Shown here: one piece after another, positions 509 through 32,162 of the stretch
How positions within the stretch are numbered: position 1 is the first letter of the stretch
How the letters are laid out: the number at the start of each line of letters is the position of its first letter
Virus record (IMG/VR): IMGVR_UViG_3300030107_002139
Span: 7,905-42,557 of that record
Reading direction: 5' to 3' (one strand)
DNA length: 34,653 nucleotides
Source of the DNA: a virus
Position numbers and translations under genes: made by a program
Notes under the pieces: generated by a model
Seen by the model: the letters and a program-made list of their open reading frames with translations, nothing else
What the model was told of the DNA's origin: nothing
Database searches by the model: none

Positions 509-1627
509 TTACGCTACTGCTTGGATTTTGCAATGATATGAAGGAGGACCAAATTCGAATCCCATCTCCATATAAACTGCTTTACCAATTCTTGCATTAG
601 CATCTTGGTCTAGGTCACGAACAAACACAGTTCCCATTCCTGGGATATTTGTAAATACTGGTTGTATGTAAGCTAGGTCTAAGATGAAAGCAGTACCTGT
701 TGGCATGATGTCAGGGTCAATAACCATCAATCCGATTGAACCGAATGGGGTTACGATTGTATCAATGTCAACACCAGCAACATTTCTATCTCTAGGAATG
801 ATTGCTCCTGCTATATCTACTGTACCTTTAACAAGTTCATTGTTAAGGTCTAGTAGTTGTTGTGGACTAACGCATAGTACAGGTTGTTTCATTGGAGCAT
901 GGTTGTCATACATTCTCTTTAACGCACCTGATATAGTTGCGAAAGAGATGACTTGAGCTGAACCAGTTCCGTCACCTGAAGCGTCATTGTAGTAGCAGTT
1001 ACCACCTAATGGGTTTACTGCTGCAGAGTTACTAGCGTTCTTGTTTAATGTAATCCATACATCAATTCCGTACATTTCTCTAGTTCCTGACCCAGGTGTT
1101 GTGTTAGCACCATCTGAGAAAGAACCATTGAATGCGAACCATTCTACTTCTCTTGCTACTTTTTCCATAGCTTTTTCAAGCTGTAATGCAAATTCATCTG
1201 TTACTGGATTTCCACCGAATAACCCTAATTCGTTTGCGGCTGTTGTTGTACCATCACCATCTGATTGATTAGCAATGTTAGCTGACAACGCAAAAGGATT
1301 TTGGTTACCTGTGGATGCTAAAGCTGTATAGGTCATTTGTACACCTTTATGGAAAATTTGAGTTACATGTGTATACGCAGCTCTGTCTCTTCCAAGATAT
1401 TCTGTAGGTGCAGCACCTTCTTGTCCTTTAGTAGGTTCTGAAGAAATGATTGCATTATCTTCTACTTGGACTTGCCAAAATGTAGAATTTAATACTTTAC
1501 CACCATTCAAACCACCAACTGAGGAAAGTAAAGGTGTTCTTTGACCACCAACTTTAAACAATTCACCAGTAAAGTTATTGATATTTTGTGCATAAATCGT
1601 ACTATTAGTTAACGATATTTCTGCCAT
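509..1627 (-). CDS. Major capsid protein (HK97 fold, SU10/DUF5309-like)
   Basis: A 372-aa protein that should form the icosahedral head shell. The N-terminus (RTPLLSSVGG, residues about 30-39, then a WQVQVED segment) and the later blocks EWFAFNGSF, YGIDVWI, VLCVSPQQ and DTIVTPFGSIGLMVIDPDIMP follow the pattern I associate with the SU10-type capsid family (DUF5309). The length is normal for the family. A ribosome site AGGAGA precedes the ATG. It lies directly after a scaffold-like gene and follows terminase and portal in the same operon, which supports the call. An HK97 fold is assumed from family membership; no protease domain or long cleavable N-terminal delta domain is visible. Confidence 0.85.
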   Translation of the reverse strand: MAEISLTNSTIYAQNINNFTGELFKVGGQRTPLLSSVGGLNGGKVLNSTFWQVQVEDNAIISSEPTKGQEGAAPTEYLGRDRAAYTHVTQIFHKGVQMTYTALASTGNQNPFALSANIANQSDGDGTTTAANELGLFGGNPVTDEFALQLEKAMEKVAREVEWFAFNGSFSDGANTTPGSGTREMYGIDVWITLNKNASNSAAVNPLGGNCYYNDASGDGTGSAQVISFATISGALKRMYDNHAPMKQPVLCVSPQQLLDLNNELVKGTVDIAGAIIPRDRNVAGVDIDTIVTPFGSIGLMVIDPDIMPTGTAFILDLAYIQPVFTNIPGMGTVFVRDLDQDANARIGKAVYMEMGFEFGPPSYHCKIQAVA

Positions 1628-1687
1628 TTTTATCTTCTCCTATATAAATTGTTTACTATTACTTTTTTGAAGAAGACTGAAAAGCTA

Positions 1688-2146
1688 CTATTTACTGTTC
1701 TTTTTAGCTTCTTCTATCGCAAATAATTTAGCAGATATAGATTGTTTGGTCGTACCTTTAGCTTCAACTTCTTTAATTTGTGAGACTATATCATCACCAT
1801 AAACATCTACTACAGAACTTTTTTGGATATTTTCTAGTTTGGCTTGACTTTGTTCAACCTCTGTTACTTCTGATTGTATTCCGTCTTGTTGCCCAAACTC
1901 TACTCCAAATTCTTCGGTAGCAAATTGTTGAATGCTTTGTACATCCATCTCTCCTGAGTACAATTTCTCTACTGCTTTACCAATGCCTTTATCAGTATCA
2001 AGACCTGCTTTTTGAAAGACTTCTACTCTTTCTCTGGCTTCATACTTTGCAAGTTTCTCTTCTAGTGCCTCATTCTTTTTACGAATTTCGGCCCAATTCT
2101 TCTCGCTGTTATTGGCTTCTTCTGAGTTTTTAAGCTCTTCTGTCAT
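1688..2146 (-). CDS. Scaffold-like protein
   Basis: A 152-aa, highly charged, mostly helical protein. Residues about 10-45 form a likely coiled coil rich in Glu and Lys (for example ALEEKLAKYEARERVEVF), and the C-terminus is again lysine-rich and helical. Length, composition and position immediately upstream of the major capsid gene match phage capsid-assembly scaffolds, which line the procapsid and are removed before DNA packaging. No sequence motif proves it. The ribosome site (AAGGAC) is weak and about 10 bases from the ATG. A leader with a promoter-like element and a stem-loop precedes the gene. Confidence 0.7.
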   Translation of the reverse strand: MTEELKNSEEANNSEKNWAEIRKKNEALEEKLAKYEARERVEVFQKAGLDTDKGIGKAVEKLYSGEMDVQSIQQFATEEFGVEFGQQDGIQSEVTEVEQSQAKLENIQKSSVVDVYGDDIVSQIKEVEAKGTTKQSISAKLFAIEEAKKNSK

Positions 2147-2235
2147 TATTCACTTGTCCTTACTTCACACGATATTTTTACAAGAGGTGTATGAGTTACC
2201 TCTGCCTATTTTTACGCTACTTTTTTTATTTGACA

Positions 2236-2260
2236 GGTCTTGTTAGTAGGCATCAAGACC
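2236..2260. repeat. Perfect 7-bp inverted repeat in the leader of the scaffold/capsid transcript
   Basis: GGTCTTG (2236-2242) and CAAGACC (2254-2260) form a stem with an 11-base loop. On the minus strand it is followed by an A-rich stretch, so it is not a normal terminator for the leftward operon. Between the promoter-like element at 2317-2325 and the scaffold start it would be a 5'-leader hairpin, possibly stabilising capsid mRNA. Confidence 0.55.
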
Positions 2261-2316
2261 GAATACAATATTCCTAGTCGAGTTTTACCCCCAGACCAGT
2301 GATAGGGTCAATTATT

Positions 2317-2325
2317 AGTATAACA
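2317..2325 (-). promoter_or_regulatory. Extended -10 promoter-like element for the scaffold/capsid genes
   Basis: On the minus strand this reads TGTTATACT, an extended -10 (TGn plus TATACT). It closely matches TGTTATAGT at 25877 on the plus strand. A GTTTAAAC palindrome (2347-2354) lies just upstream, about where a -35 or an operator would be. It sits in the only sizeable gap of the structural operon, so a separate strong capsid promoter is reasonable. Confidence 0.45.
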
Positions 2326-2346
2326 GATATTTATAAAGGGCAAGTG

Positions 2347-2354
2347 GTTTAAAC
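2347..2354. promoter_or_regulatory. GTTTAAAC palindrome after a stop codon and upstream of a promoter-like element
   Basis: The site begins 2 bases beyond the stop codon of the 446-aa gene and upstream of the extended -10 at 2317-2325. It is the only intergenic copy in the left 22 kb and resembles the copies at gene ends in the early region. Confidence 0.6.
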
Positions 2355-2356
2355 AA

Positions 2357-3697
2357 CTACCCCTCTATAAGGCCTTTAACTTCGCCTGTTCTTGTTTGTG
2401 CTGCACCTGCAGTTGGTGAAGATTGAGATATTAATTGTTGTGTAATTCTGTCTAATTGTTGCTGATAATCTGAATTACCTAAAGCTACAGCTTGTACATA
2501 TTCTGATGTTCCTATTTGTTCTCTACCTTGAAACCGAGCTGCTGTTTGTAACCCAGGTAGTCTTGTTGCTGCTGATTGAAGTGCTTGTCTAGCTCTGTCT
2601 TGTGTAAGTCCTTGTTTAGCAAAACTTTTAGCAACAGCTGTAGTTAAAGCATTACCACCCATTGCTACTTCTGCTTCAGCTAATATCTGACTTGCTCTTA
2701 TTTGGTTTTCTAATACTTTAGTAGAAAGCTGTGGTGAGATAAACATACCAAATATAGATTCTTCATTTAAATCTAAATTAAATTCTCTGAGATAAACTTC
2801 TTTTACTTGAGCTATATTATTAACAATTCCTTCATAACCTACATTTAATCTATCTGCAAACTCTTGTGCAGATACATCACCAGATATAGCTTGTACTATA
2901 TCTTCTTGAAAAACTTGGGGATTTAAATTGTAATCTCTTAACTCAAGTTCCATAAATTCTTTAACAACAATATACTCTTGTTCTGTCATACGAAGAGTTC
3001 CATCATCTTTTGTTATCCCTGCATATACAGTTTCCATCATTGGGTCACTTCTCATAGTTAATAATGCAAGTTCACTATCACCTGTATCTATCCAAGCCTT
3101 TGTGTAAATATCTATAAGCCTTTCATCTAAATAAGGAAATCTTAATTTAACTTCTTCTCTAGTTGACATACCTTTAGGAGCAGGTGTTGGAGTTGGTCCT
3201 CTAGTAATAATATCACTAGCAGAAGGAGGGTTGAATGTATTTTTTAAATCATCATTGTCGTTTCTTGCAGATTCCCTACTAGCTTTTAATGCAGCATTTA
3301 ATCTATCTATTTCTGCACCTACTGTTGCATCTGTATATGTTCCTGCAGGGTCTGCTTTTGCAACATAAAATCCTCCTGCACCTTGAACAATAACATACAT
3401 AGTTGACTCTTCACCTCCACCAGGGTTAGGTACGATAACTGGTTGATTATTACCTCTACCTAGATTTGGGTCTTTATAAAAAGGGTCTTGTGCTTTTTTT
3501 CTATCATCAATATGTTTACTACTTGACCCTGCTGCTGGTGCGGTAGGTCTCTTAGTACTTCTCGCTTCTTCAGCAATCTGCTCTTCTTTTGTTCCACCTT
3601 TTGCTTCACGAATTTGACCACTACTAATCTCACCTTTTGCTTCTGCAGAAAGTGCTTCTTCTATGCTATCGAATCCTAGTATTTGCCACCAAGGCAT
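2357..3697 (-). CDS. Virion-module protein, 446 aa, unknown function
   Basis: I do not recognise this family. The N-terminal third (residues 1 to about 175) is low complexity and modular, with Pro/Thr/Gly-rich linkers (PTAPAAGSSS, IVPNPGGGEE, RGPTPTPAPKG). From about residue 180 to the end it is largely helical and Ala/Gln-rich. The start ATG at 3697 has a clear AGGAG site. It lies in the operon between the 387-aa protein and scaffold, a slot that in short-tailed phages often holds internal or DNA-ejection proteins; this is inference. A GTTTAAAC site follows the stop codon by 2 bases. Confidence 0.75.
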   Translation of the reverse strand: MPWWQILGFDSIEEALSAEAKGEISSGQIREAKGGTKEEQIAEEARSTKRPTAPAAGSSSKHIDDRKKAQDPFYKDPNLGRGNNQPVIVPNPGGGEESTMYVIVQGAGGFYVAKADPAGTYTDATVGAEIDRLNAALKASRESARNDNDDLKNTFNPPSASDIITRGPTPTPAPKGMSTREEVKLRFPYLDERLIDIYTKAWIDTGDSELALLTMRSDPMMETVYAGITKDDGTLRMTEQEYIVVKEFMELELRDYNLNPQVFQEDIVQAISGDVSAQEFADRLNVGYEGIVNNIAQVKEVYLREFNLDLNEESIFGMFISPQLSTKVLENQIRASQILAEAEVAMGGNALTTAVAKSFAKQGLTQDRARQALQSAATRLPGLQTAARFQGREQIGTSEYVQAVALGNSDYQQQLDRITQQLISQSSPTAGAAQTRTGEVKGLIEG

Positions 3698-3710
3698 TAT
3701 TCACTCCTCA

Positions 3711-4874
3711 TTAGTATGCTGCAGACAAGTCTTGTTCAAACTGTCTACCCATATTGCTTATCATATCATTCTTAACACCTGGTGTATCTATGTAATCTCC
3801 TCTTATCTTTGTTCCCATAGCATTAAAATCTCCACTAAAATCTCTTGCCATATTATCAATGTATGACTTATCTTCCATGCTTGGAGATATTTTTGTTATC
3901 TGTGTAAAGTATTGATAAAAAGGAGCAGACCAAGTGCTGTGTTTACCACCTTTAAAATGTGGAAACATTGAATCGTGTGCTTGTTGCAATTCTTTTATAA
4001 TTGTGTTACGCATAATGTTACTTTCATTTGCAGCATCCATTCTTAACATACCTGCATAACTGTCTAATAGTCCTGAATCTCTGAAACCTTGGACAGCATT
4101 TATTCCTAAATATTCTGCTATAAGTCCTTCAGCAGATAACTCTCCTGCTCTTGTAGAATTTATAGTATCTAAATATCCTTGGTATTCAGGAGGGATAGTA
4201 TCAATACCACCTGATATTTGTCTATACACATCATCGCTTAATAATTTAATAATATTAGCTGCATCTCCAGATGATATTTTTCCTGTAGATACTGCAGTAG
4301 ATAAAGCAGTAGATAATCCTTCTACTCCTGCACCTGTAACATCTTGTGAAAACAGAAACTGATTAAACGATGCTTTGTTATCAAACAATAATTGGTTAGC
4401 TTCTTCTGGAGCTAAAGCCATTAGTTGAATCCAGTTTCTTTCTTGTTGTGATGTAGTTAACCAATAGTTAGTATTTTCAATATCTGCTTGTTGTACTGGT
4501 TGTCCTGTTAAAGCAGATAAAGCATAAAGATTCATTATCTCATCATCAAATACCCAATCACCTAATTTTGCAGCAGTTCTATTTAAATTTCTTTCTAATG
4601 AAGTTTCTAAATCTTCCCATGTTTGATTCTCAGGATTTTTAATTTGTGAATAATCCATTATATCTACAAACAATCTATTGTTTGCTTCTTCCCATTCTGC
4701 TTTAGTTCCGACAAAAGATGGTGTGGCTCCTTCTAGTAAAGCAGAAGTGTCATCTACAAATACCAAAACAGGCATTGAATAGTCATCTCCATCTACATTA
4801 AATACACCATAATAGTTGCCATCAACTAAAATTAAATCATCTGGCTGTGTAAACTCTGGTTCAAAATATGTCAT
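3711..4874 (-). CDS. Virion-module protein, 387 aa, unknown function
   Basis: Not a recognised family. The first 60 residues look beta-rich (DLILVDGNYYGVFNVDG) and the rest is mostly helical and Ala/Asn/Gln-rich, ending FEQDLSAAY. There is no signal peptide or membrane segment. The start lies immediately after the stop of the 1219-aa gene, so the two are probably coupled. With its neighbours it forms a block of large proteins between portal and capsid that is best explained as internal, neck or ejection proteins, but no catalytic motif is visible. Confidence 0.75.
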   Translation of the reverse strand: MTYFEPEFTQPDDLILVDGNYYGVFNVDGDDYSMPVLVFVDDTSALLEGATPSFVGTKAEWEEANNRLFVDIMDYSQIKNPENQTWEDLETSLERNLNRTAAKLGDWVFDDEIMNLYALSALTGQPVQQADIENTNYWLTTSQQERNWIQLMALAPEEANQLLFDNKASFNQFLFSQDVTGAGVEGLSTALSTAVSTGKISSGDAANIIKLLSDDVYRQISGGIDTIPPEYQGYLDTINSTRAGELSAEGLIAEYLGINAVQGFRDSGLLDSYAGMLRMDAANESNIMRNTIIKELQQAHDSMFPHFKGGKHSTWSAPFYQYFTQITKISPSMEDKSYIDNMARDFSGDFNAMGTKIRGDYIDTPGVKNDMISNMGRQFEQDLSAAY

Positions 4875-4875: not shown

Positions 4876-7800
4876 TTAGTAATTAGTATAACTCATATCT
4901 TTATCAGACACAGTGTATTCAGCACTTCTTGCCATGTTTTCGCCAATCTCTGTGAAAGCCCAGTTTAACATAGGTTCTGATAGTTTCCATGATATAGACC
5001 AGTCATCTCCTATGTTACCCATTTCTTGCCAAGTCTCTTTTCCTAAATCTTTCCAACTCCATTGAGACCAATCAGGCTCAACTAACTCTTCAGGTTCTTC
5101 ACCTTCTATTGTTTTACCTCCCATAAAAGATGGAATATATTGTGGTCCTTTATCTATTCCTACTTTTTCTTTTTGAGTTTGTACTGCATTAGCTAATGCA
5201 ATTCCAACATCTAGTGTTGCTATAGTTAGTTCATAAAATATATAAGCAAATAAAGCAGGATATGTAATAGCTGTTGCACCAAGTCTAGGTAATAATCTTC
5301 TCATACCTTCTGTAATAACTATGTCACCTGGGTCAGCAATTTGTAAAGTTTGAAGACCTTTTTTTATTACCTGACCAGGCAATTTTTTTGCAGCTTGAAA
5401 AATACTGTTTGCATGTTCTGGAAAATTCTGTACAAATTGTTCTACTCTTTTAACAGATTTAGGGTCTAAATGTGGAGCTAAATCTTCTGCTGTTTTTATG
5501 ACTTTTGGTACAACTTCTAATCCTCTTATTGGTTTAATTTCTTTACCTTCAGGAACCATTAAATTTATTGAATCACCGCTTTTTAATTGCATTCCAATTA
5601 AACCTATTGCTCCTATTTCTTTTACAGAGCCATCTGCTTGTACAACTTTTAAGTACTTTGAATCATTACCTAGTTCAGTTATTAACTGTGTTGCAGGTCT
5701 CATGTGTAAACCAACAGGGTCTGTAATTTTTAACTCTAAAGGAATTAATTTTTCAACTACTACATCATCTACTACATTTGTAGGTGTGTCTGGTACTGTA
5801 AAACCTTCTTTAGGTAATTCACTACTTGTTATGTACCAATTCTCTACTAGAAATTTTAATCTTTTTTTGCTTAAATAATTTATATTTCCCTCTTTAGGAT
5901 TTATAACTGTTTTAGACCAAGGGTTATCTACTGCTTCTTTATATGCAATAATTTCTTTTTCACCTTTAGCATCTAAACCTAAAGAATGTAAATCTATAAA
6001 ATCATTTTTATGAACAAAATAACCATCTATACCTCTACCTCTTCTTATAGTTTCTTGATTAGTTTGATAACCTACAGAATGTGCTTGAATACCATCTTTA
6101 CTGAATGATTGAACTGGGTCATTTGTCAATGCACCACCTCTAAATAAAATAAAATAATCCTCTGAATTTGCATATAATTTATTATGTTCATTAATTATTG
6201 TTTGTTTCATTCTTTGTTGTGCATTAGCAAATGGTCCTTCTTCTCTACCAAATTGCAATATTAATTCATCACTTAATCCTATTGCACTTTTATAACCTGC
6301 ATTAGGTCCTGTTGTTATATCTGTAGATACACCACTCATATAATTTTTCATCATTTCTAATGTATTTTCATTAACTAAATCAATAGGACTTTTACCATTA
6401 AAAATAACTATTTTAGTTACATCAGCTAAAGCATCAGATGAGTTAAAAGGTTTTGTACCAAAAGCAGGTGTTGGACTTGTGTGCATTAACCATATTCCAA
6501 ATCTAGTAAAATCTATATCACTTACTGTGCCATCTAATATTTTTGGAAGTATTCTTTTTATATCCTCATAATTTAAATTAGGTTTTAATATATCATTTTT
6601 TTTAACTACACCATCTTTCCATCTAGGTTGGTCTGAGTTGCTACCAGGATATTTGACTTCTTCTCCTAAATCTTCCCTCCACACTAAATCAGAATTAAGA
6701 GTAGGTACATCATCTACTACATTTGTAGATGGTCTGTTTTTAATTTCATCAAAGTATTTAATAAATTCTTCCTTAGATATATTTTCAAATCCTCTTCTTT
6801 CTGCAGAAGCATCTCTTAGTTGTAATTTAAACATATCATTTAATAATTTTTCTACATCATCAAATTCAAAACCTCTATCCATAAGTTCTTGAATTAACTT
6901 AGAGTGTTCCATTTTGTTGTGGTATAAATCAGGTGTATCAAATATTTCTAATGCTGCATCATATATATCATCTACTACATTTGTAGGTGTTGTTTCTATA
7001 TCTTCTAATTTTATTAAGTCTTTAAAAGCATCACCCATAACATTTTCTTCAACACCTTCTGGAGTGATATGTTTAATAATTTTACCATCAGGACCTATAG
7101 GTAAATCTTCAGGTTTTGTAATTCCTAAACCTGGCCATACAAAATCTTCTGCAAATCCTCCAGCATTACCAAGATGAGCATGAGGCTTTTTACCTGTTTC
7201 GTATTTATAAAAATTTACATTTTCATATTTTGGAAATTCTATAAATTTAAAGCCATCTTTATTATTTAACTCGTTTAAACGGTTTATTATTACTTGTTGA
7301 TTATTTATATATGAGTATTGTATTTGATTCCACCCACCAGAAGATATGGCATCAGAACCAGAAACATCTGAAAAGAAATTTTCTATATTTTTGTAACTAT
7401 CTTTTAGGTGGTTGTATTCACCATTTTTATTTAAAATATTAAATGCTATTTCTTTGTCAGCATCATTTAGCGTATCTAAAAATTCGGATATAGTGTTTGG
7501 TTGAGGACTGTCAAAATCTTTAATAGTCATATCACCAAAATCTGGCTGCATTAATTCAAAAATTTGTTCTTTGTTTAAATTAAATACATCAATTTTGCTT
7601 CCTGTTGTATTTTCATTTAAGAGATTTGCTATTTCAACTAAAGCTCTATCCCAATTTCCTTGAGTAATACCAATATCAGCTGTATCTAAATTCATATGTT
7701 TTAGCATAAGATTTATAATGTCATTAGCTAGTGTGTCGTCTATACCATAAACATTTTGAATACGATTTATAACCTCTGTGTGTAGTTTATATCTATTTTT

Positions 7801-8535
7801 TGTTGTTCCTGAATAACCAGATTGATTCCAAATTTCTTGTAGTTCGTTTTTTATTTTTCCATAATCTTCAGCTAAAGGGTCATGCCAAACAGTAGACTGG
7901 TCAAAACCAAATGTTGATGTATCTCCAGCCAATGCACCTTCTGTTAATGGATTCATTTCTCCATCAATATACTTCTGCATATCGTGTGCTAACCATTCTT
8001 CATATTTTGAATAATCTTTTTTTATTTCTTTTATTTTCTCAGCTAAATTAGAAGGCAGTTCAATTCCTTCAGCATTTAAATCATCTACAGTTTCAATAAG
8101 TTTTGGTATAAAATGTACAAAACTTCTAGTAGTTACAGATTCTGGTATTGCTACAGAAAGCATCCATGTTTCATGCTGTGCTATTTCTGTAGTCAAACCA
8201 AAATCATTAATGACTTCATTTAATGCTACATTGAAAGAAACAGAGTCTGGCGAAAGTCCTGTTTTAATAGAATATTCTCTCCATATTATATCTTTGTTTA
8301 AACCAGCATCTTTATAAAATGTTACTAATATTGCTTTTTGTTGTTCTAGTGGTAACTGTTGAAGTCTTACTTCAATATGATTTTTTACTATAGGAGTCAA
8401 ATTAGCATGAGTAGCAGGATTTCTTAACATTAAATTAATTAATAGTTTTCTTAATTCTTTTAAATCAGAACCTATTGCTTTATAAAATAGTTTTAGATAT
8501 TCTTGATTTTCTACAAAATGACCCCAGTTTGACAT
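4876..8535 (-). CDS. 1219-aa mosaic virion-module protein with ADP-ribosyltransferase-like and HPr-like domains
   Basis: Three copies of the linker TNVVDD (residues 518-523, 604-609, 919-924) split the protein into blocks. Residues 1-517 are helical and unrecognised. Residues 524-603 form a small charged block. Block 610-918 contains FRGG (Arg799), S810-F-S812 and E859-K-E861, the order of the R-S-ExE motifs of ADP-ribosyltransferases, followed by hydrophobic strands. Just after the third linker, residues about 930-1008 match HPr of the sugar phosphotransferase system: GLHMRPA with His944 and Arg946, then a GLIGMQLKSGD segment; the regulatory serine position appears to be Gly. The C-terminal part has one hydrophobic stretch (about 1100-1130). 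No ribosome site is evident, so translation is probably coupled to the 48-aa gene upstream. Its place in the late operon suggests a protein packaged and delivered with the DNA. Domain calls are by eye; catalytic activity is unproven. Confidence 0.7.
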   Translation of the reverse strand: MSNWGHFVENQEYLKLFYKAIGSDLKELRKLLINLMLRNPATHANLTPIVKNHIEVRLQQLPLEQQKAILVTFYKDAGLNKDIIWREYSIKTGLSPDSVSFNVALNEVINDFGLTTEIAQHETWMLSVAIPESVTTRSFVHFIPKLIETVDDLNAEGIELPSNLAEKIKEIKKDYSKYEEWLAHDMQKYIDGEMNPLTEGALAGDTSTFGFDQSTVWHDPLAEDYGKIKNELQEIWNQSGYSGTTKNRYKLHTEVINRIQNVYGIDDTLANDIINLMLKHMNLDTADIGITQGNWDRALVEIANLLNENTTGSKIDVFNLNKEQIFELMQPDFGDMTIKDFDSPQPNTISEFLDTLNDADKEIAFNILNKNGEYNHLKDSYKNIENFFSDVSGSDAISSGGWNQIQYSYINNQQVIINRLNELNNKDGFKFIEFPKYENVNFYKYETGKKPHAHLGNAGGFAEDFVWPGLGITKPEDLPIGPDGKIIKHITPEGVEENVMGDAFKDLIKLEDIETTPTNVVDDIYDAALEIFDTPDLYHNKMEHSKLIQELMDRGFEFDDVEKLLNDMFKLQLRDASAERRGFENISKEEFIKYFDEIKNRPSTNVVDDVPTLNSDLVWREDLGEEVKYPGSNSDQPRWKDGVVKKNDILKPNLNYEDIKRILPKILDGTVSDIDFTRFGIWLMHTSPTPAFGTKPFNSSDALADVTKIVIFNGKSPIDLVNENTLEMMKNYMSGVSTDITTGPNAGYKSAIGLSDELILQFGREEGPFANAQQRMKQTIINEHNKLYANSEDYFILFRGGALTNDPVQSFSKDGIQAHSVGYQTNQETIRRGRGIDGYFVHKNDFIDLHSLGLDAKGEKEIIAYKEAVDNPWSKTVINPKEGNINYLSKKRLKFLVENWYITSSELPKEGFTVPDTPTNVVDDVVVEKLIPLELKITDPVGLHMRPATQLITELGNDSKYLKVVQADGSVKEIGAIGLIGMQLKSGDSINLMVPEGKEIKPIRGLEVVPKVIKTAEDLAPHLDPKSVKRVEQFVQNFPEHANSIFQAAKKLPGQVIKKGLQTLQIADPGDIVITEGMRRLLPRLGATAITYPALFAYIFYELTIATLDVGIALANAVQTQKEKVGIDKGPQYIPSFMGGKTIEGEEPEELVEPDWSQWSWKDLGKETWQEMGNIGDDWSISWKLSEPMLNWAFTEIGENMARSAEYTVSDKDMSYTNY
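5764..5783 (-). repeat. 20-bp direct repeat encoding the linker TNVVDD (copy 3)
   Basis: Plus-strand ATCATCTACTACATTTGTAG, identical to copies at 6709 and 6967. It encodes residues 919-924 of the 1219-aa protein, directly before the HPr-like domain. Confidence 0.9.
6709..6728 (-). repeat. 20-bp direct repeat encoding the linker TNVVDD (copy 2)
   Basis: Identical 20 bases encoding residues 604-609, directly before the block that contains the ADP-ribosyltransferase-like motifs. Confidence 0.9.
6967..6986 (-). repeat. 20-bp direct repeat encoding the linker TNVVDD (copy 1)
   Basis: Identical 20 bases encoding residues 518-523, at the end of the large N-terminal block. The third codon positions are also identical among the copies, which is more than protein conservation needs. 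Confidence 0.9.
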
Positions 8536-8686: not shown

Positions 8687-9580
8687 TTATCTATCTCCTC
8701 TTAAAAAACTAATAGCGTCATCCAACAATACACTTGCTTTTTCTATAGGTGTTTTCATTTCTATTTCTTCTGGTTCATCAAACCTAGTAAGCCTATCTAA
8801 AGTATGTAAATACTTAGCAGCATGTTGTCCTGAAACTATTCTACCAGAATGTGGTAATATCTCTTCTCCTGTATATCTTCCTGTTTCTTGATTAATAACT
8901 CTACCATCTGGTGTTGATGAAGGCATAGGAACACCTCTGTCAGTATCTTCTTCTTCTTCTACAACTGTTGTAGGTTCACCAGGTTCTCCTATTTCTATGT
9001 CTTGTTCAACTGGAGGTGGAGTAGTTTCTACATTCATTTCACTTTCAATAAGCTGTTTAAACTCTTGTGCGTCAATATTACTTGGGTCATTAAACTTACT
9101 AACAGTTAAAGGATATAACAAATCTATAGCTACTAATTCATCTTCAGCACCTTCTTGTATTTTTTGTTCAACCATATATTTAAATACAAGCATTTGGTCA
9201 TCAACAGAAGCTGTCTCTTTAAACCAATCTACAACAACTGTTCTTTGTGTAGGTGTAAAATATCTTCTATCGCTTCCTGTTTCTGGAGCAATATTACTCA
9301 TTAATTGTTTATCTTGTTCTTTAGATACTCTAGGTATTTTTACTCCTAGTTCTACCATTGCTCTGTAAACAGCAGGAGCCATTGCATTTTTAGCAATATG
9401 TGCTTGTGCTATTCCCCAAGAATCTGATAATTCATCTTTGGCATTTCTAGTAAAAGCAACACCGTCTTCTCTTGATTCATAACCTAAGATAGGAACAACA
9501 TACTCTATTACTTCTTCTGCTATTCCTACGCTTTGTAATGCTTCAATAACTTCTTGCGTTGTGTATGATTCTGGTTCCAT
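8687..9580 (-). CDS. Lysozyme/transglycosylase-like virion protein
   Basis: A 297-aa protein. Residues about 22-62 resemble a soluble-lytic-transglycosylase/lysozyme-like core: a helix ending in GYES (Glu35 as the likely catalytic acid) followed by SDSWGIAQ (54-59), the usual S-x-G-I-x-Q pattern. Such domains cut peptidoglycan glycan strands, and in virions they open a local hole in the wall during DNA entry. After about residue 190 there is an acidic, Pro/Glu/Thr-rich linker (ETTPPPVEQDIEIGEPGEPTT). The gene overlaps the preceding one at the start codon and has an AAGGAA ribosome site. Only part of the lysozyme fold can be recognised, so this is a moderate call; a purely structural protein is the alternative. 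Confidence 0.6.
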   Translation of the reverse strand: MEPESYTTQEVIEALQSVGIAEEVIEYVVPILGYESREDGVAFTRNAKDELSDSWGIAQAHIAKNAMAPAVYRAMVELGVKIPRVSKEQDKQLMSNIAPETGSDRRYFTPTQRTVVVDWFKETASVDDQMLVFKYMVEQKIQEGAEDELVAIDLLYPLTVSKFNDPSNIDAQEFKQLIESEMNVETTPPPVEQDIEIGEPGEPTTVVEEEEDTDRGVPMPSSTPDGRVINQETGRYTGEEILPHSGRIVSGQHAAKYLHTLDRLTRFDEPEEIEMKTPIEKASVLLDDAISFLRGDR

Positions 9581-10986
9581 TAGGCATTCCTTCCTGCGTT
9601 AGATAATGTTATATAGTTTCTAGTAAATAACTTTGCATTTTCTCTAGCTGTTTCTCTATCTTCTACTGCACCAATTCTTTTTCCATATCTTTCTTTGAAA
9701 TAATTATTCATAGTTCCTGGAACATCTATTGGGTCTTTCATTCCTATTTGTTCTTCAATAGTACTAGCAGGTGGAACAATATATACTCCTGTGTTATCTT
9801 CATATACTCTTCCATCATGCTTTGCTTGTTGATACTCTATAAAACCTTCTTCCCCTTCTTCAGGAACAGATTCAAATTGTTTTGTTCCAAGTATAAGTTC
9901 TTTAAGATAGTTTCCACCAGATTCTATTTCGCTTTGTCTTTGAGCTGCAGTATTAGAAATATCAGTAAAGTAAGCACCATCCGCTTGATACATTGAAGCA
10001 TCTGCAACTAAACCATAACTAGCATATAAATCATCAAGTGCTTGTTTTTTCTCAGATTCCAAAGGTCCTGGTTGCCCAAGAGTAGCGTAACCTTGAAGAG
10101 ATAATATTTCTGCTAACTGTGTTCCAGAATCATTTTGAGTTTTAAATTCTCCTAATGCTGAACGCCATTGCTGACCAACATCTACATGTCCTTGTTCTAA
10201 ATCATATTCCCAACTTCTTGAGTCATTAGCATAAGCTAATACTTTTTCCATATAATCAGCTAAACCTTCATCCCAATAACCTAATCTTTTAGGAGCAGGT
10301 CCTCCTGCTTCAACAATCATCTGTTGTATTTCAAATAAATCATCTCTACCTTGAAACAATCTTGTTCCATCGTTTCTTAAAAAAGGTGCTTTAACATCTC
10401 CTTCTAATCTATTACCTTCTCTATCTGCGTAATATCCATCTCTGTCATAATAATTTCCACCTAAAGTCAAAGCATTAGAAGTTGTTGCTTTTGTTCCAGT
10501 ATCATCCCAACCATAACCTGGGTCTCCACCTTCTAACTGGAAATAATCTATAGCATCTTGAGTAAGGTCTTCTTGTATAATTGATAAAGAATCTTGTCTT
10601 TCTTGATTTAAATCTTTGTAGTCATCGTCACCAAATATTTTGTTATCAATTAATACATTAGTACCACTAAATAATACAAGTTGTTCATCTAACTTAATAG
10701 GGTTTGATAATGAATTTAATTCATAATTTAATTTTGTTATTAAATTTTTTAATACTAATAAATCTGTATTGGATGTATCTTTAAATTCTTTAAGGTCTTT
10801 TAAACTTGATAATGAATCTACTAATGGTGTTGCTATTAAATCATTTATTGAATATGTTTTAGGTATATTCCATTCATCATCACCAGGCTTAAACCTGTTT
10901 CCTTCACCTGCGACAGCAGGAATTGATGAAGTACCAAATAATTCATTTAAAAAACTACTAATATCATCGTGTGTTTTATATCCCAT
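9580..10986 (-). CDS. Virion-module protein, 468 aa, unknown function
   Basis: Not a recognised family. The sequence is soluble, polar and rich in Asp, Gly, Tyr and Asn, with a long hydrophilic middle (for example GGNYYDRDGYYADREGNR) and a basic C-terminus (RNYITLSNAGRNA). The ATG at 10986 follows the stop of the 2078-aa gene, with an AGGAAA site overlapping that gene's last codons. It ends overlapping the lysozyme-like gene by one base. Tight packing between two likely ejection proteins suggests a virion component. Confidence 0.75.
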   Translation of the reverse strand: MGYKTHDDISSFLNELFGTSSIPAVAGEGNRFKPGDDEWNIPKTYSINDLIATPLVDSLSSLKDLKEFKDTSNTDLLVLKNLITKLNYELNSLSNPIKLDEQLVLFSGTNVLIDNKIFGDDDYKDLNQERQDSLSIIQEDLTQDAIDYFQLEGGDPGYGWDDTGTKATTSNALTLGGNYYDRDGYYADREGNRLEGDVKAPFLRNDGTRLFQGRDDLFEIQQMIVEAGGPAPKRLGYWDEGLADYMEKVLAYANDSRSWEYDLEQGHVDVGQQWRSALGEFKTQNDSGTQLAEILSLQGYATLGQPGPLESEKKQALDDLYASYGLVADASMYQADGAYFTDISNTAAQRQSEIESGGNYLKELILGTKQFESVPEEGEEGFIEYQQAKHDGRVYEDNTGVYIVPPASTIEEQIGMKDPIDVPGTMNNYFKERYGKRIGAVEDRETARENAKLFTRNYITLSNAGRNA

Positions 10987-10988
10987 TA

Positions 10989-13900
10989 TTATTTCCTAGT
11001 ATTGTCAACCTCTCTGTAAAGAATAGCATAAAATAATTGATTCCAGTAGGTATCTCCATACTCTTCAACAAGCTCCATTCCTAATTGTTTTAATTGTTCT
11101 CTAACCCAACTTGCTCTATCACTTGTACTATCTAATGGATAAATAGTTGGAGCAGTAGGATTAAAATTACCGCCTCTCCATTTACCACCATTTATCAAAA
11201 CATCTATTGCTTTATCTCTTTCTCTAAGATATATACTTAATGGTTCATATTCTGGAGAGTTTCTTAATTGTTCAATATTTTTCCAATCATATAGTTCTAA
11301 AATATTCATTTTAGGGTCAGATGCAACTTCTCCAATACCTAAAGGTCCAAATGCAACAATACCACTTTTCTTTTCTAAGTCTGCTCTAAATAACGCATAG
11401 TTAGCATTAGCCCATTTTGTTGTATATTTATCAGTCTCACTTTTATCTGCAATCTTTAATAATCTTTCTTTTTCTTTTTGAAGTTCTCTTTCTATTAAAG
11501 TTTGTCTTGCTAATAAATCCCAATCTTTTTCATCATAATATTCTCTTGCGTTATTAAATATATCAGACCAAACCCATCTATCATCAATAGTGTCTGGTCT
11601 TGTAAAGTAAGCTGTTCTAGGTGCTTGTTTCATTACTTCTCTATTTTCTGGTTTTAACCAATATTCAACAGCACCTTCTGTTTTAGGTGTTCTTAACCCT
11701 GGTTTATATTTTCCTAATTTTAATGGAATAGGATTAATATCAAATCTATCTATAAATTCATCTGTAGTAACCATATAATCATAATTATTTTCAATTAACA
11801 TTCTGTCGTACTCTTGTGCTAATGTCTGAACAAACCACCAATTACCATCTTTATCTTCTAATTCTATTCTTGGTTGTATTCCTGTTGGGGCTGTCCATTG
11901 AACTAATCCTCTTATTAACCATTGGTTATTAGCTGCTTCAGCAAATTTTTCAAACTCAGCATCTGCTGTTTCAGGGTCAGTTGGGTCTATTAATCCTTTT
12001 GAGTACATAACAGATAAAGTATCTATAACTGAACTAGCATATTGTTGGTCAAAATATTCTGTACTATTTTCTGTAAATCTTTCTTGAGTAAAGAATTTTC
12101 TATGAGATGGTTTTATAAACTGTAATCCAAATTCTTCTATATCTGTAACATTTGTTCTAAAGTCTCCTAAGAACAATGTTTTTACAGCATAAGGCAAATT
12201 TCCAATAACTCTATCAAAAAACTCTAATGTCCAAGTAACTTTAGGTCCAACACTAGGTAAAAGACCATTTGCAGTTACAAGGTTTAATGCACCAAGAAAA
12301 CCTGCAGGTCTTACTCTTATGCCTTCGTCTCTTAAATCTTCTCCAAACCATCCTTTTTGTATAACTCCCATAGGGTCAGGATAAGAAAACATTCTTTTTC
12401 CTGAAACTGGGTCTCTAAAGAAATAACCCATACTTGCATCATAAGGCTTACCTTCTTCAGCAGCATCAAAAGCTACTCTTGCTCTATTAAATTTACCTGG
12501 CCCTTGCCCAAATAATCCACCCCAAGTTTTCCAAACCTCTGCTCCAATTTCTGGAAATGGTACATAACTAGAAAGTATGTCTGAAAATACATGTCTTTGT
12601 GATGTTGAATACAATAAGTCCATTACAGTAGCTGCTGCTTTCTTCTGTAATATACCCATAGCTTGGTCCATACTTGTTATTTGTTCTTCAAATCCAATCT
12701 GTTTAAATTTGTTAAATACAGTTCTATATTCTGCTAAAACATCTTCACCAAATTTTGAACCTCTTAATTGTTGTTCAGCTCCTCTTATCCATTCTGAAGC
12801 AGTTTTTTCATCAAACAATCCTAATGCTTCTAACCCATGTTCATACAAACTGTACCTATACAATGGGTCTCTATTCATAATGTCAGAAGGTTTTGTTAAA
12901 AATAAATTATATTTAAATTCCAACATCTTATCATATTTTGCTAGAGCTAACTCTAAACCTTTTGTTCCTGTTGAGTAATCTGCTATATCATCTAAAAAAG
13001 AATAAGAACCTGGAAGTGAATCAGGAAACATCTTCATATCTGGAGATACTAAATTCCAGAAGTCTTTGTAAAATCTTTTTAATCTTGTTGATTGTGCTAA
13101 AGCACCTTTACCACTATTTGCTAAAGCTATTTGCCATGCTTCTGCGTAATCTTTACCATTGTAAAAACCACCACTTTTTAATAACTTTTGACCCATTTTA
13201 GAACCAGTATTTAAATCAGCTTCATACAAAGGGTACATTTTTGCAGTACCAGTATGTCTTATTTTTGTTGCCCATTCTTCAGAAACAGCTTCACCGTTTA
13301 ATGGATTTTTAATTTTTACTTCTCCACCAATTAATTTTGTCATTCTGTAATTAAGAGCTTCTAAATTATTTCTTAAATTTATAGGGTCGTATAATTCTTG
13401 CTTTTGTTTTTGGCCACGAACATCAGCCATATCTATTGAACGCTTAAGTAGTTCTTTTCCTTCTGGATTTTTAAGTAAATATCTTAATGTTTCGTCTACA
13501 CCATCATTAGCTAACTTTATTGATATAGGATTATTAAATTGTAACATCATCTGATGTACAAATGTTCTTACATAATCTTCTTCAAGTTTACCGTTTACAA
13601 TTTTTGCATGTTGTTTATAAATACCTTTATATTGATTTCTGAACTCTGGTTGAAAAAAGTTTTTCATAGCTTTTGTTGCCATAGCTGTAATATAACTTTC
13701 AGTAAGAGGTAACCACGAACCATTAGGAGCAGCATTCATAATCCCTCTTTTCTTTCTTCTAACTGCTTTAGCTACATCAAAGTTTGTATCGTATAAAGCG
13801 TTTAATATTTTTTGATTAACTACATCATCTAAATCAACTAATCTATTTGGATTTTTAGCAAATCTTGGAGAATCAGGATTAATAAATTTCATAAAGCCCA

Positions 13901-16900
13901 TTGCAATATCACCTGTAGTTGGGTCAAGAACCTCTTCTATTGCATCATGCCAATATCTTAATTTATCAGATTCTAATATATTTTTTACAGCCATTATTCT
14001 TAAAGTCTCTTTAGGTAAAAAAGCACTCTTTTGTAATCCTTTTATTCCTAACATAGCTGTTGCTACAAATGCTTTTTCTATATCTAAGACTGATGCTGAT
14101 TCATCTAATTTTGGAATAGAAACAGAAACATCAAGTTGTAAGTTACCATCTACCATTCTCCACCCTAAAGCATGATTTTCTTTTCTTAAATATTTTAATC
14201 TTTCAGCACCTGCTGCTGTATCTGTATCTAAGTAACTATTTATTAATTTCCATATAGCTTCTGGTTCTGAATCTGCTGCTACATTTCCAATAACATCAGC
14301 ATCTATTGTTTCTGAAAGTCTTTGATAAGGGCTAACAGAAGCAAACATTTCTGTTTCTAAAGTACCTTTATTAATGTTGTATGTTCCACCTTTTGAGCTG
14401 TTAACAACAGCATCTAACAATTCATCTCCAAGACGAACTGTTCCTTTATTTACTTTTAAAGGTTTAATATTTAGCTTTTGATAAGAATCAAATATAAAAT
14501 CTCTACCATCTCCACCTTCTTTTAATACCCAAGCAACAAAATCATCGCTAGTCATTCCTTCGGTATTAACACCTATTTTGGTGTGTTTCATTATTTTTTC
14601 TATTGCTCTATAATCAGCTTTTGCTGCATTAACAAATTCAGAACCAAGTATTTCTTCTAAAAATTCTTTTTCTTTTTTTAATATTCTTGTACTCCATAAA
14701 ACATCTCCTGAAGTATTTTGTAATTCTAGTTGTGTTCCTGCTGAAAATTTCATTGCAAAATAATGAAATGGATGATTTAAACCAATACGAGAACCAGACA
14801 TCATAATTCTTAACGCTTCCTCTGGTGCTACTCTTGTAGTTAAAGCACCCCTAAGCATCCAAATAGGTTTTAAAACTCTTTGAATTAAATAATCTTGATA
14901 TATCATATCTAGTGTTGCAGCTTTACCTCCACCACCGATACTAGGTTTACCTGTTCTAGGGTTTGTCTTAAAAGCTGTTTTTTGTAATCCCAATCTTTTT
15001 AACATTTTATTTGTTGGTCCTACAGTATCTGCATCAATATATTTTCGTATAGAACCATCTTTAGTACCAATTAATTTTCTAAGTAAAGGAAATGCTTTTT
15101 CTAATTCAAGATAATCAATAAGTGGTGTATAAGTATCTACCATCTCTGAAATCATTTGAGCAGTTGGCGTAGCTTCATAATAATCTTTACCATCTTTAGT
15201 AGTAATTTTTCTCATCTTTGTTCCTGGAAATGCCATAGGTGTACCTTTTTCTGTAACAAAGTATTGTTTAATACCCATAGATTCATCAGCAAGAAATGTC
15301 ATTACTTCTTGTATGTCTTCTATATCTAAATCTGGATTTTTTCTTTGTATTTCAGGAATAACATCGTTGTAGACATTTCTAACAACTTCACCTATTTCAT
15401 CTTGGCTTTCTGCATCTAACATTTCTTTTATTCTTGTTCCTCTTTGTTCTAAAGACAACCTACCTGATTTCATAATTCCATCTAAGTTTCTTGAAGCAAC
15501 TCCAACATTTTTTATAGATACATATTTTCCTGGAGCTAAATCAAAATATTTTCTCATCCTATAAGGAAGTGAATTTCTTAACTCTCCAAAAACATTTAGA
15601 ACTCCATTAAAAACATCGTCTTGAACATTAAAAATATCTCCTGGCAACGCTTCACTTAAAGCGGCTCTACCTTTAGCAACAGTTTTTCTTATTGGTGCAA
15701 TATCTGTATATTCACCTGTAATTTTTTTTGCAATAGCATTTGATACTTCAGGAATCAAATTGGCTTTCATAGGTAAAGACATTCCTGCTGCACCACCTTC
15801 ATCTATTGCTTGAATAACTTCATCTGTTATTCCAAATCTCAGTCTTAAAGCAGGGGTTAATTTAGATAAATTACCTTGGTTCATTAAAGAAACTAAAACT
15901 TTTTGCATATCATCTACATTGTCAATAGCTGAAAGTAATCGTAATATTCTAGGGTCAAGGTTTTTAAATTGAGGTATATCCATTAAAACCGCTAAACCAA
16001 TTTCACCTTGAGCATCAGCCATAGCTTGAAGAAATTTTTGTCCTCTTTTAGTTGTTAATACTTGTTCTGTTGTTCTACCATACTGAAGTCTTCTTGCTTC
16101 TTTAGCAGACATTTGAATTACTTCGCCATTAGGTAATGTTTGTTTTCCTCCTGCAATAGTTTTATATAGCCTTGGAAGAAGTGGTAAGTTTTTAGATTCT
16201 TCAGCTAAAGCCTTACCTGTTTTAAATAATGCTTGTTCATTTGCAGTAACAAGTGACCTTAAACCTATTTTGGCACCACTCATATAACCTAAACCTAAGT
16301 TAACTGGGTCAGCAAATATTCTGAAAACTCCATCTAAAGCAGCAGAACCAACAGCATATCCTAAATCATCTTTTGTAAAAAACTGACCTGCAACATATCT
16401 ACCTGGAGATATGTCAACTTTTCCTGCTTTTCTTGTATTAGCTTTAAATTGATTTTCTTTTTCTTCAAAAACTTCTGTTATTGGAGTTCCATACTCTAAT
16501 TCAGCTTCTCTGTAAGCACCTTCTTCAGAAAACCCTTGTCTTCTTAAATCTCTATACTTTTGTGTTTCTTGTAATTTTGTAGATTCTGGGAACCAACCTG
16601 TTCCTAAGTTAACTGGTTTTCCTTTTTTCCATTCATCGTAAGCTAAATTAAACTCTGCAGGTCCATAAGCATCTTTTGCTTCTTTATATTTATCTGCAAA
16701 TTCTTGTCCATAGATTGATTTTCTAATTCTATCTGCAGCTTTTTCTCCATCTACACCTGGAATCCATGAAGCAAGACCTGTTGCTAGTCCTAATGAAAAG
16801 TTACCTGAAACAGCAGTAGGAACATTTAATCCAGTTTCTTGTGCTGCAACAACAGTTGACTTAAAGTTTCTTGATACTGGTTGAAATCCTAAATCTAACA

Positions 16901-17225
16901 TTAGAAGTCCAAGCTGCGAAGCTCTTTTAGCACGAGATATTTCTTTAAATCTTTTTACATTTTGTTCTACAAAAGCATCGTGATTTCTTTGTGCTAGTTT
17001 AAACGCTAAGGGGCTATCTGGTTCAACACCCATCATTCCTGCATACATACCAATTTTAGGATTCATGTTTGGATAGTTATTTAATAAACCGCCAACTCTT
17101 TCAGCAACATCTGGAGTAACAGTATTTTTAAAATACTCTATCTCTCTTAAGTTAGCTTCTGTTTCTTGTCCTAAAAAATCCTCAACTTCTGGAGGAGGTT
17201 GGAACATTCCTCGCCAATCTACCAT
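10989..17225 (-). CDS. Giant virion protein, 2078 aa, probable internal/ejection protein
   Basis: At 2078 residues this is by far the largest gene of the window. It is predominantly helical, rich in Lys, Glu, Leu and Ala, with no signal peptide. A Gly/Ala-rich stretch near residues 140-155 (SLGLATGLASWIPGV) and another near 300-320 might touch membranes. Around residues 770-810 a block containing YQDYL, LKPIWMLRG and EEALRIMMSG resembles segments I associate with very large minor virion proteins of actinobacterial phages; that is recall, not proof. I could not find T7-type RNA polymerase or peptidoglycan-hydrolase motifs. Its start overlaps the previous stop (TAATG), without a clear ribosome site, so translation is probably coupled. 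Its position after portal and before a lysozyme-like gene fits a DNA-ejection protein of a short-tailed phage. A tape-measure role is less likely, given its place before the capsid genes. Confidence 0.7.
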   Translation of the reverse strand: MVDWRGMFQPPPEVEDFLGQETEANLREIEYFKNTVTPDVAERVGGLLNNYPNMNPKIGMYAGMMGVEPDSPLAFKLAQRNHDAFVEQNVKRFKEISRAKRASQLGLLMLDLGFQPVSRNFKSTVVAAQETGLNVPTAVSGNFSLGLATGLASWIPGVDGEKAADRIRKSIYGQEFADKYKEAKDAYGPAEFNLAYDEWKKGKPVNLGTGWFPESTKLQETQKYRDLRRQGFSEEGAYREAELEYGTPITEVFEEKENQFKANTRKAGKVDISPGRYVAGQFFTKDDLGYAVGSAALDGVFRIFADPVNLGLGYMSGAKIGLRSLVTANEQALFKTGKALAEESKNLPLLPRLYKTIAGGKQTLPNGEVIQMSAKEARRLQYGRTTEQVLTTKRGQKFLQAMADAQGEIGLAVLMDIPQFKNLDPRILRLLSAIDNVDDMQKVLVSLMNQGNLSKLTPALRLRFGITDEVIQAIDEGGAAGMSLPMKANLIPEVSNAIAKKITGEYTDIAPIRKTVAKGRAALSEALPGDIFNVQDDVFNGVLNVFGELRNSLPYRMRKYFDLAPGKYVSIKNVGVASRNLDGIMKSGRLSLEQRGTRIKEMLDAESQDEIGEVVRNVYNDVIPEIQRKNPDLDIEDIQEVMTFLADESMGIKQYFVTEKGTPMAFPGTKMRKITTKDGKDYYEATPTAQMISEMVDTYTPLIDYLELEKAFPLLRKLIGTKDGSIRKYIDADTVGPTNKMLKRLGLQKTAFKTNPRTGKPSIGGGGKAATLDMIYQDYLIQRVLKPIWMLRGALTTRVAPEEALRIMMSGSRIGLNHPFHYFAMKFSAGTQLELQNTSGDVLWSTRILKKEKEFLEEILGSEFVNAAKADYRAIEKIMKHTKIGVNTEGMTSDDFVAWVLKEGGDGRDFIFDSYQKLNIKPLKVNKGTVRLGDELLDAVVNSSKGGTYNINKGTLETEMFASVSPYQRLSETIDADVIGNVAADSEPEAIWKLINSYLDTDTAAGAERLKYLRKENHALGWRMVDGNLQLDVSVSIPKLDESASVLDIEKAFVATAMLGIKGLQKSAFLPKETLRIMAVKNILESDKLRYWHDAIEEVLDPTTGDIAMGFMKFINPDSPRFAKNPNRLVDLDDVVNQKILNALYDTNFDVAKAVRRKKRGIMNAAPNGSWLPLTESYITAMATKAMKNFFQPEFRNQYKGIYKQHAKIVNGKLEEDYVRTFVHQMMLQFNNPISIKLANDGVDETLRYLLKNPEGKELLKRSIDMADVRGQKQKQELYDPINLRNNLEALNYRMTKLIGGEVKIKNPLNGEAVSEEWATKIRHTGTAKMYPLYEADLNTGSKMGQKLLKSGGFYNGKDYAEAWQIALANSGKGALAQSTRLKRFYKDFWNLVSPDMKMFPDSLPGSYSFLDDIADYSTGTKGLELALAKYDKMLEFKYNLFLTKPSDIMNRDPLYRYSLYEHGLEALGLFDEKTASEWIRGAEQQLRGSKFGEDVLAEYRTVFNKFKQIGFEEQITSMDQAMGILQKKAAATVMDLLYSTSQRHVFSDILSSYVPFPEIGAEVWKTWGGLFGQGPGKFNRARVAFDAAEEGKPYDASMGYFFRDPVSGKRMFSYPDPMGVIQKGWFGEDLRDEGIRVRPAGFLGALNLVTANGLLPSVGPKVTWTLEFFDRVIGNLPYAVKTLFLGDFRTNVTDIEEFGLQFIKPSHRKFFTQERFTENSTEYFDQQYASSVIDTLSVMYSKGLIDPTDPETADAEFEKFAEAANNQWLIRGLVQWTAPTGIQPRIELEDKDGNWWFVQTLAQEYDRMLIENNYDYMVTTDEFIDRFDINPIPLKLGKYKPGLRTPKTEGAVEYWLKPENREVMKQAPRTAYFTRPDTIDDRWVWSDIFNNAREYYDEKDWDLLARQTLIERELQKEKERLLKIADKSETDKYTTKWANANYALFRADLEKKSGIVAFGPLGIGEVASDPKMNILELYDWKNIEQLRNSPEYEPLSIYLRERDKAIDVLINGGKWRGGNFNPTAPTIYPLDSTSDRASWVREQLKQLGMELVEEYGDTYWNQLFYAILYREVDNTRK

Positions 17226-23967: not shown

Positions 23968-23997
23968 AACAAACAAACAATGGAAATGGAGAAGAAA

Positions 23998-28677: not shown

Positions 28678-28897
28678 ATTTTTTGACAAAGATTATTACA
28701 CAAAACAACTTCTAAACATTAGAGAAAATATAGATGTAAAAGAACAAGAGGTTTCTTTTTTAAGAAAAAGAAGAACAAAAATAGTAGGTCAAGCATACGC
28801 AGGAGGCATGTCTGCTATAGAATTAGGAAGAATATTAGGCATGAGTAGGCAAAGTGTTTATGCTTTAATAAACAAACAAGGAGAGAATAATGGATAA
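28670..28897 (+). CDS. Small helix-turn-helix DNA-binding protein, 75 aa
   Basis: Residues 1-40 are a charged helix. Residues 47-68 (MSAIELGRILGMSRQSVYAL) are a typical helix-turn-helix of the resolvase/HTH_23 type, with a Gly turn and Ser-Arg-Gln at the recognition helix. No enzymatic domain is attached. GAGAGGAAG gives a ribosome site. It is the only obvious sequence-specific DNA-binding protein in the early module, so it is a candidate for recognising the GTTTAAAC sites; that link is conjecture. It overlaps the next gene by 8 bases. Confidence 0.75.
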   Translation: MGKFFDKDYYTKQLLNIRENIDVKEQEVSFLRKRRTKIVGQAYAGGMSAIELGRILGMSRQSVYALINKQGENNG

Positions 28898-30654: not shown

Positions 30655-30656
30655 AC
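30649..30656. promoter_or_regulatory. GTTTAAAC palindrome containing both stop codons of convergent genes
   Basis: The plus-strand nuclease ends GTT TAA and the minus-strand phosphoesterase also ends GTT TAA within the same eight bases. The two coding regions overlap by 4 bases, and there is no separate terminator. Confidence 0.85.
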
Positions 30657-31883: not shown

Positions 31884-32162
31884 CTATTTAGAAATTTGTT
31901 TTTTAGCGTATGTCTTAACTACTGCTAATGCAGCACCACCACCAGCTAATGCAGCTAACTGAAGTACTTCAGCGTCTACACCAACTAGAGGAGCAACTGT
32001 TAAGGCACCAATGAAAGCCTCAATGAATGTCCAAGCTGTTCGCTCAATCATATCTTTTAAGTCTTCACTCATTTTATAACTCCATGCTTCGTTCCAAGGG
32101 GTCCACGCCACATCCTTCTTGAATGTACCTTTAGATGTTCTTGCTCTTATTTTTTCAAACAT
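31884..32162 (-). CDS. Holin (r1t-like)
   Basis: A 92-aa protein. Residues 1-40 are hydrophilic; residues about 43-85 (RTAWTFIEAFIGALTVAPLV, then LQLAALAGGGAALAVVKTYA) form two hydrophobic helices with a short turn and a basic end. This is the pattern of r1t-type phage holins, including the aromatic/Ala-rich first helix. Holins open the inner membrane for lysis. It overlaps the start region of the DUF5675 gene by one base in the lysis-type cluster. Confidence 0.7.
   Translation of the reverse strand: MFEKIRARTSKGTFKKDVAWTPWNEAWSYKMSEDLKDMIERTAWTFIEAFIGALTVAPLVGVDAEVLQLAALAGGGAALAVVKTYAKKQISK

Follow-up and report, generated by a model that had tools for sequence, protein, structure and literature searches.

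Recombining domain cassettes, one of them an HPr domain, are separated by a conserved DNA linker in a late gene of uncultured phages

The DNA analysed here (the window) is a stretch of 34,653 nucleotides (nt), positions 7,905 to 42,557 of the 42.6-kb IMG/VR virus record IMGVR_UViG_3300030107_002139. It carries, at a position referred to below as the slot, a gene for a modular protein of 1219 amino acids (aa) in which four cassettes are separated by three copies, variants included, of a short DNA element, the linker. This element of about 27 bp, GACACACCTACAAATGTAGTAGATGAT, encodes DTPTNVVDD. An earlier note on the window had drawn attention to an ADP-ribosyltransferase (ART)-like and an HPr-like domain in this protein, and to their pairing; the repeated DNA linker, which it missed, is more unusual than that pairing. 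Coordinates of all parts are given in Table 1; loci of related phages are numbered with the prefix L.

Conservation of the linker was assessed at the DNA level. IMG/VR was scanned with a pattern degenerate at every codon of TPTNVVD[DE], synonymous variants being allowed, and 85 stretches were returned, all of them (85/85) in frame within open reading frames (ORFs). One 23-nt string is common to 75 of the 79 distinct contexts, where 4.4% would be expected from the codon usage of the same genes. Codons at same-residue pairs are identical in 98% of cases within the linker, against 51–63% at invariant residues of the major capsid protein, portal, terL, and two neighbours from the same loci. Conservation spans positions -4 to +23 and drops to background level immediately beyond, so that the edges are sharp; amino-acid variants (NVGDD, NLGDD, NEVDD, NVEDE) occur with the DNA nearly unchanged. 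In 257 Gb of genomes from bacteria and archaea the same scan found five matches: one, exact, inside an Actinomycetota metagenome-assembled genome (MAG), and four unrelated ones. A chance origin of the linker was ruled out, these four matches to the peptide pattern differing from it by 4–7 nt. Searching for the 19-nt core irrespective of frame led back to the same gene, with a few chance matches besides. When 18-mers were counted over 88 loci, linker words were present in up to 87 and the best non-linker word in 15; the loci had been chosen by linker presence, and the count therefore serves as a contrast, not as a discovery. The string TNVVDD was found in no text of the literature searched. Read in another frame, the linker (e.g., window 6967–6990) gives ATG TAG TAG ATG, that is, a start, two stops, and a start.

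Similarity between slot genes breaks off at the linkers. Among 212 ends of high-scoring segment pairs (alignments of at least 80% identity inside slot genes), 52% are no more than 15 nt away from a linker in each of the two genes, against 5.9% expected. Single pairs of loci illustrate the pattern: L010 and L012, 99.55% identical over 12.6 kb downstream of the linker, show no nucleotide similarity upstream; between L017 and L064, with 92–94% identity on either side, the cassette between two linkers is the sole difference; the L005 protein matches the window protein at 94% identity through residues 1–521 and then, from the first linker on, has a different cassette, which also follows the linker of L011. 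The 119 junctions represent 76 distinct cassette pairings, with 21 tail families joined to at least two heads and 17 head families joined to at least two tails. Twenty-four of the 76 pairings, reshuffled ones included, recur in at least two independent samples or assemblies, and assembly chimeras are therefore unlikely as a general cause.

The slot itself is fixed: in IMG/VR the linker marks it in more than 80 loci of related phages. There is exactly one ORF with linkers per locus, and wherever neighbours are present, terL, portal, and the genes for 2078-, 468-, and 297-aa proteins lie on one side, and the 387-, 446-, and 152-aa and capsid genes on the other; the 387-aa gene abuts the slot gene directly. 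Complete slot genes carry one to four linkers, with internal cassettes mostly of 70–410 aa. The slot proteins of relatives, fetched via neighbouring genes, measure 779–1481 aa and differ in make-up: L009–L013 have in common with the window protein only the ART-like cassette, and L008 only the HPr and C-terminal domains. Cassette 2 of the window is found also in L044 (70% identity, again with a linker directly after it), with more distant versions in L009–L013, L023, L045, L061, L087, L120, and L121. The C-terminal domain is common to slot proteins carrying different cassettes, and the strongest hydrophobic segment falls within the last 35% of the protein in 50 of 52 complete slot proteins. GNAT and methyltransferase-like cassettes were detected in other relatives at scores below Pfam cut-offs. 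A Pfam search of 19 further slot proteins yielded, beyond HPr, weak matches only, most cassettes being left without a name, and tblastn of the whole 1219-aa protein against 50,697 phage records gave zero matches. The slot gene start AACAATGGCTGAAGATAAC (MAEDN...) is shared by about 15 loci, being the next most common 18-mer after the linker, and often runs straight into a linker (MAEDNTPTNVVDD); it is possible that this start is a second exchange boundary.

Table 1 Features of the slot gene, its conserved neighbours, and the recombination genes in the window (all positions refer to the window).
Feature	Position	Strand	Description
Slot gene	4876..8535	-	Modular 1219-aa protein; four cassettes and three linkers
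Cassette 0	6991..8535	-	Residues 1-515; shares 94% identity with L005; N-termini of L008 and L034 are related
Linker 1	6967..6990	-	Residues 516-523, TPTNVVDD; exact match to 23-nt consensus
Cassette 1	6733..6966	-	Residues 524-601 (78 aa); also in L034 and L063 with other neighbours
Linker 2	6709..6732	-	Residues 602-609, PSTNVVDD; two mismatches to consensus
Cassette 2 (ART-like)	5788..6708	-	Residues 610-916; motifs R799, S810-x-S812, E859-x-E861
Linker 3	5764..5787	-	Residues 917-924, TPTNVVDD; exact consensus
HPr domain	5554..5736	-	Residues 934-994; His944/Arg946
C-terminal domain	4879..5448	-	Residues 1030-1219; DPGD motif, hydrophobic helices
Upstream conserved neighbours	8687..17225	-	Proteins of 297, 468, and 2078 aa; putatively for ejection or internal to the virion
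Downstream conserved neighbours	509..4874	-	387-aa, 446-aa (phrog_8424), and 152-aa proteins; SU10-type major capsid protein
Single-strand annealing protein	28890..29891	+	phrog_3290, 6.9e-7
Exonuclease	30651..31835	-	phrog_284, 1.9e-50

The HPr domain is genuine: the profile matches, HPr folds lead the structural matches, and the His and Arg of the active site are conserved. Pfam family PTS-HPr (PF00381) matches at 24.1 bits (gathering cut-off 23; E 3.9e-5), at 28.9 bits (E 4.1e-8) when searched against this genome alone, and matches relatives independently (e.g., L008, 30.7 bits). The motif GLHMRPA begins at residue 942, with His944 (nt 5706–5704) and Arg946 in the places of HPr His15 and Arg17 (GLHxRP); both are retained in 12 of 14 distinct HPr-cassette sequences, the exception being the L027/L042 type. 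In that type (L027:2181–2330 and L042:9828–9962, both on the minus strand) WHNTP replaces GLHARP, the His is kept, the Arg is lost, and the domain is shortened. An AlphaFold model of residues 921–1219, built from 13 sequences, gave a predicted local distance difference test (pLDDT) score of mostly 66–85 for the HPr part; the elements b-a-b-b-a-b of the HPr fold, an open-faced beta-sandwich (b-a-b-b-a-b-a), are formed and the final helix is missing. The first 20 Foldseek matches of this model are all HPr/Crh (probability 0.84–1.0), yet every E-value is at least 0.04; VIA-align gave Z 6.7 and a root-mean-square deviation of 3.0 over 77 of 87 residues. Free-standing HPr cassettes of 88–90 aa with a linker at each side are present in L037, L071, L072, L084, L086, and L094. 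Phosphorylation of the domain by enzyme I is possible. The regulatory Ser46 of HPr, the site of HPr kinase, is not used by all members; at the aligned position the window protein has no Ser, and control by HPr kinase is therefore unlikely. No relevant literature on phage-encoded HPr was found.

For cassette 2 the evidence is a motif. FRGG begins at residue 798 (Arg799, nt 6141–6139), SFS occupies 810–812, and EKE 859–861; R799-G-G, Q-S810-x-S812-K, and E859-x-E861 do not vary among the 12 sequences of the cassette, window included, the others being about 30–37% identical to the window version and one 75%. The order R-S-E, with ExE before a strand, is usual in the ART superfamily. No ART family matched the cassette in Pfam, PHROGs, or PDB profile searches; hhalign against T4 Alt alone was not significant, and against an alignment of Alt from five phages it paired only an 11-residue stretch around ExE (P 0.058). 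The AlphaFold model (pLDDT 42.7) is unusable and its Foldseek matches are meaningless. ART-like by motif, cassette 2 stands an about even chance of being an ADP-ribosyltransferase. The motif residues quoted in the earlier note, those of GLHMRPA included, were all found where it had placed them in the 1219-aa ORF (8535–4876, minus strand); the interval it had assigned to both domains, 5737–6141, covers residues 799–933 and thus the ART motifs, with the HPr part (nt 5736–5554) just outside. The profile searches and structure predictions it had proposed bore out its HPr-like domain, as a profile match above the cut-off and a modelled b-a-b-b-a-b that lacks the last helix; its ADP-ribosyltransferase-like domain kept the invariant motif and gained nothing from profile, hhalign, or model.

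We consider it probable that the slot gene encodes a polyvalent-type effector and that short-homology recombination at a DNA seam swaps its domains while keeping the reading frame. The slot would be the effector position among the late (virion) genes of an uncultured family of short-genome tailed phages. Its product would consist of interchangeable cassettes, in the window the N-terminal cassette 0, the 78-aa cassette 1, the ART-like cassette 2, and the HPr domain, followed by the common hydrophobic C-terminal domain, through which the protein probably enters or leaves the virion; packaging in the virion and injection are suggested by the late-gene slot and this C-terminal domain. The element being fixed at the DNA level and in one frame, two phages that have it could cross over there and leave the fusion intact. 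Pairs of an annealing protein and an exonuclease are known for short-homology recombination; the annealing protein of the window is plausibly a candidate to act on the linkers and the exonuclease its candidate partner, and both, annealing short homologies during co-infection, would be the likely engine. If delivered to the host, the ART-like cassette may catalyse ADP-ribosylation, and the HPr cassette may take phosphate from host enzyme I, or may be an HPr decoy or a docking module. The stronger proposal, that a dedicated frame-locked coding seam of about 27 bp has been selected for recombination and lets co-infecting phages rebuild an injected effector cassette by cassette, is made tentatively and falls somewhat short of an even balance. 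If true, injected effectors would have a system of combinatorial domain shuffling, in which the HPr cassette connects its effector with the phosphotransferase network of the host; no description of an assembly system of this kind was found in the literature searched. Mosaicism of phage proteins is known, but as a rule its joints cannot be seen; in the slot genes a conserved DNA sequence forms the joint, which makes the building of new multi-domain effectors directly testable. Dozens of uncharacterised effector cassettes can also be pulled from environmental phages with the linker, which makes a simple DNA probe; the HPr domain joins the list of host parts worn by phages.

Several points weigh against this interpretation. 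The HPr domain is predicted without its C-terminal helix, and its phosphorylation may fail; the ART-like cassette is without profile or fold support; action of the annealing protein on the linker is purely inferred. No linker-specific recombinase turned up, the search for one having been made by family annotation of the main ORFs; no isolate was present among the collections searched, and packaging is deduced from gene position. Among the junctions that occur a single time, some may be chimeras produced in assembly at the 27-bp repeat.

Of the alternatives, the one that survives best, though we regard it as unlikely, is that a site-specific recombinase or an integron-like system, rather than general annealing, works on the element. 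Such a system would fit the element's fixed length, its sharp edges, and the short inverted repeat it contains (CTAC-AAAT-GTAG). Annealing is preferred because the arms of this repeat are only 4 bp each; moreover, annotation of the window ORFs, which covered some of the small ones, brought up no recombinase, and whole half-genomes are swapped too, as in a simple crossover (L010/L012). Slightly less credible is conservation of the linker for its peptide TPTNVVDD, for example as a protease site that frees domains after injection, with the shuffling reduced to ordinary phage mosaicism. The linker does lie between domains and is in frame every time, and the packaged DdrB of P1 undergoes proteolytic processing (PMC5512222), but synonymous sites are fixed as firmly as replacement sites, the residue variants leave the DNA nearly intact, and breakpoints concentrate at the DNA element. 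Improbable, too, is the fixed fusion proposed in the earlier note, an ART–HPr effector devoted to modification of host proteins and catabolite control: its HPr domain was confirmed and its ART motif is invariant, but HPr occurs without the ART-like cassette in L037, L072, L094, and L008, and the ART-like cassette without HPr in L009–L013, the two being among many cassettes that recombine at the linker. Least probable of all is an ordinary mosaic protein whose apparent shuffling reflects recent common ancestry and assembly chimeras at the repeated 27-mer; all contigs except one are metagenomic viral contigs, and with small k an assembler can go wrong at a 27-bp repeat, but the linker is identical while flanking genes are far diverged, and the recurrent pairings include one in a separately assembled MAG (L101).

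By architecture and gene context the slot protein fits the polyvalent proteins of phages and conjugative elements, in which one polypeptide carries from two up to many domains that are unrelated and mostly enzymatic [Iyer et al. 2017, PMC5512222]. These are encoded beside virion genes, are predicted to be injected, and include ART, GNAT, and methylase domains (PMC5512222). Likewise, the slot proteins combine several unrelated effector-type domains (HPr and others, including the GNAT and methyltransferase-like ones of relatives), and the slot lies between ejection-type and capsid genes in every locus with neighbours present. In contrast, that study has no mention of HPr, the phosphotransferase system (PTS), or a repeated linker, and raises cassette recombination only as a possibility for one Verrucomicrobium locus, whereas here it is visible with a DNA-level seam. 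Recombining domains in mosaic phage proteins have been tied to host interaction [Smug et al. 2023, PMC10684548], but no dedicated linker element is mentioned there. Effectors of the Sle1 type from actinobacterial contractile injection systems are phage-derived and reconfigurable with a variable functional domain, a feature in common with the slot protein; they differ in being derived from a tape measure and belonging to a cellular injection system, and no linker element is named in the abstract on them (PMC13277306).

Swapping of variable effector modules at a conserved boundary makes polymorphic toxins of the contact-dependent inhibition (CDI)/Rhs type, above all those with a VENN-type boundary, the nearest functional analogue. 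Such toxins have a conserved N-terminal carrier, one C-terminal module, and a paired immunity gene. The slot gene differs in having one to four seams, variable parts that are N-terminal and internal, and a location in a phage late operon, and its boundary is fixed at synonymous sites. Its product is not a member of that class: the conserved end is the C-terminal one, and the next gene is the conserved 387-aa gene instead of an immunity gene. T4 Alt, an ADP-ribosyltransferase packaged in the virion, resembles the window protein in the order R...SxS...ExE and in belonging to a late virion gene block, but sequence similarity is not significant, with ExE alone paired by hhalign, and the window protein is multi-cassette. 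With canonical HPr (PF00381), the phosphocarrier of the PTS in sugar uptake, the phage domain shares the active-site GLHxRP with His and Arg and probably the fold, and differs in the missing Ser46, in the absent predicted C-terminal helix, and in its fusion as a cassette.

Evidence on the host comes from several sources. The closest named-phage matches of terL are Streptomyces phages, at 23% identity. The linker gene of L101 lies in a separately assembled Actinomycetota MAG (RS345) holding several related terL genes. Viral contigs are often mis-binned, which weakens a host link based on a MAG. The G+C content of the window is 31–36%; marine Ca. Actinomarinales have 32.5% and possess PTS components (PMC7771536). 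The actinophage marker WhiB was absent from seven relatives. Taken together, this is only suggestive of an actinobacterial host. The terL genes of the phage family in MAG RS345 (genome G001, contigs C30 and C36) are several and different, two of them on C36 and one split in two; they possibly represent tandem or co-binned phages and offer a lead to the host.

Upstream of the window in the record, six consecutive ORFs of about 170–213 aa (L002:546–3912) are, as judged by eye, apparent tandem paralogues; they share the N-terminal patterns 'LI..' and 'YDVY..' and the C-terminal pattern '..YGVK/YGIK', and are probably tail-associated. Within the window, a SprT-like metalloprotease domain was weakly matched at 23980–24903 on the plus strand (PF10263, 20.3 bits, below cut-off; phrog_6361), and a DUF5675 protein (PF18925, 94.7 bits) at 32162–32749 on the minus strand, with a weak match to the peptidoglycan enzyme Tlde1, is a candidate endolysin.
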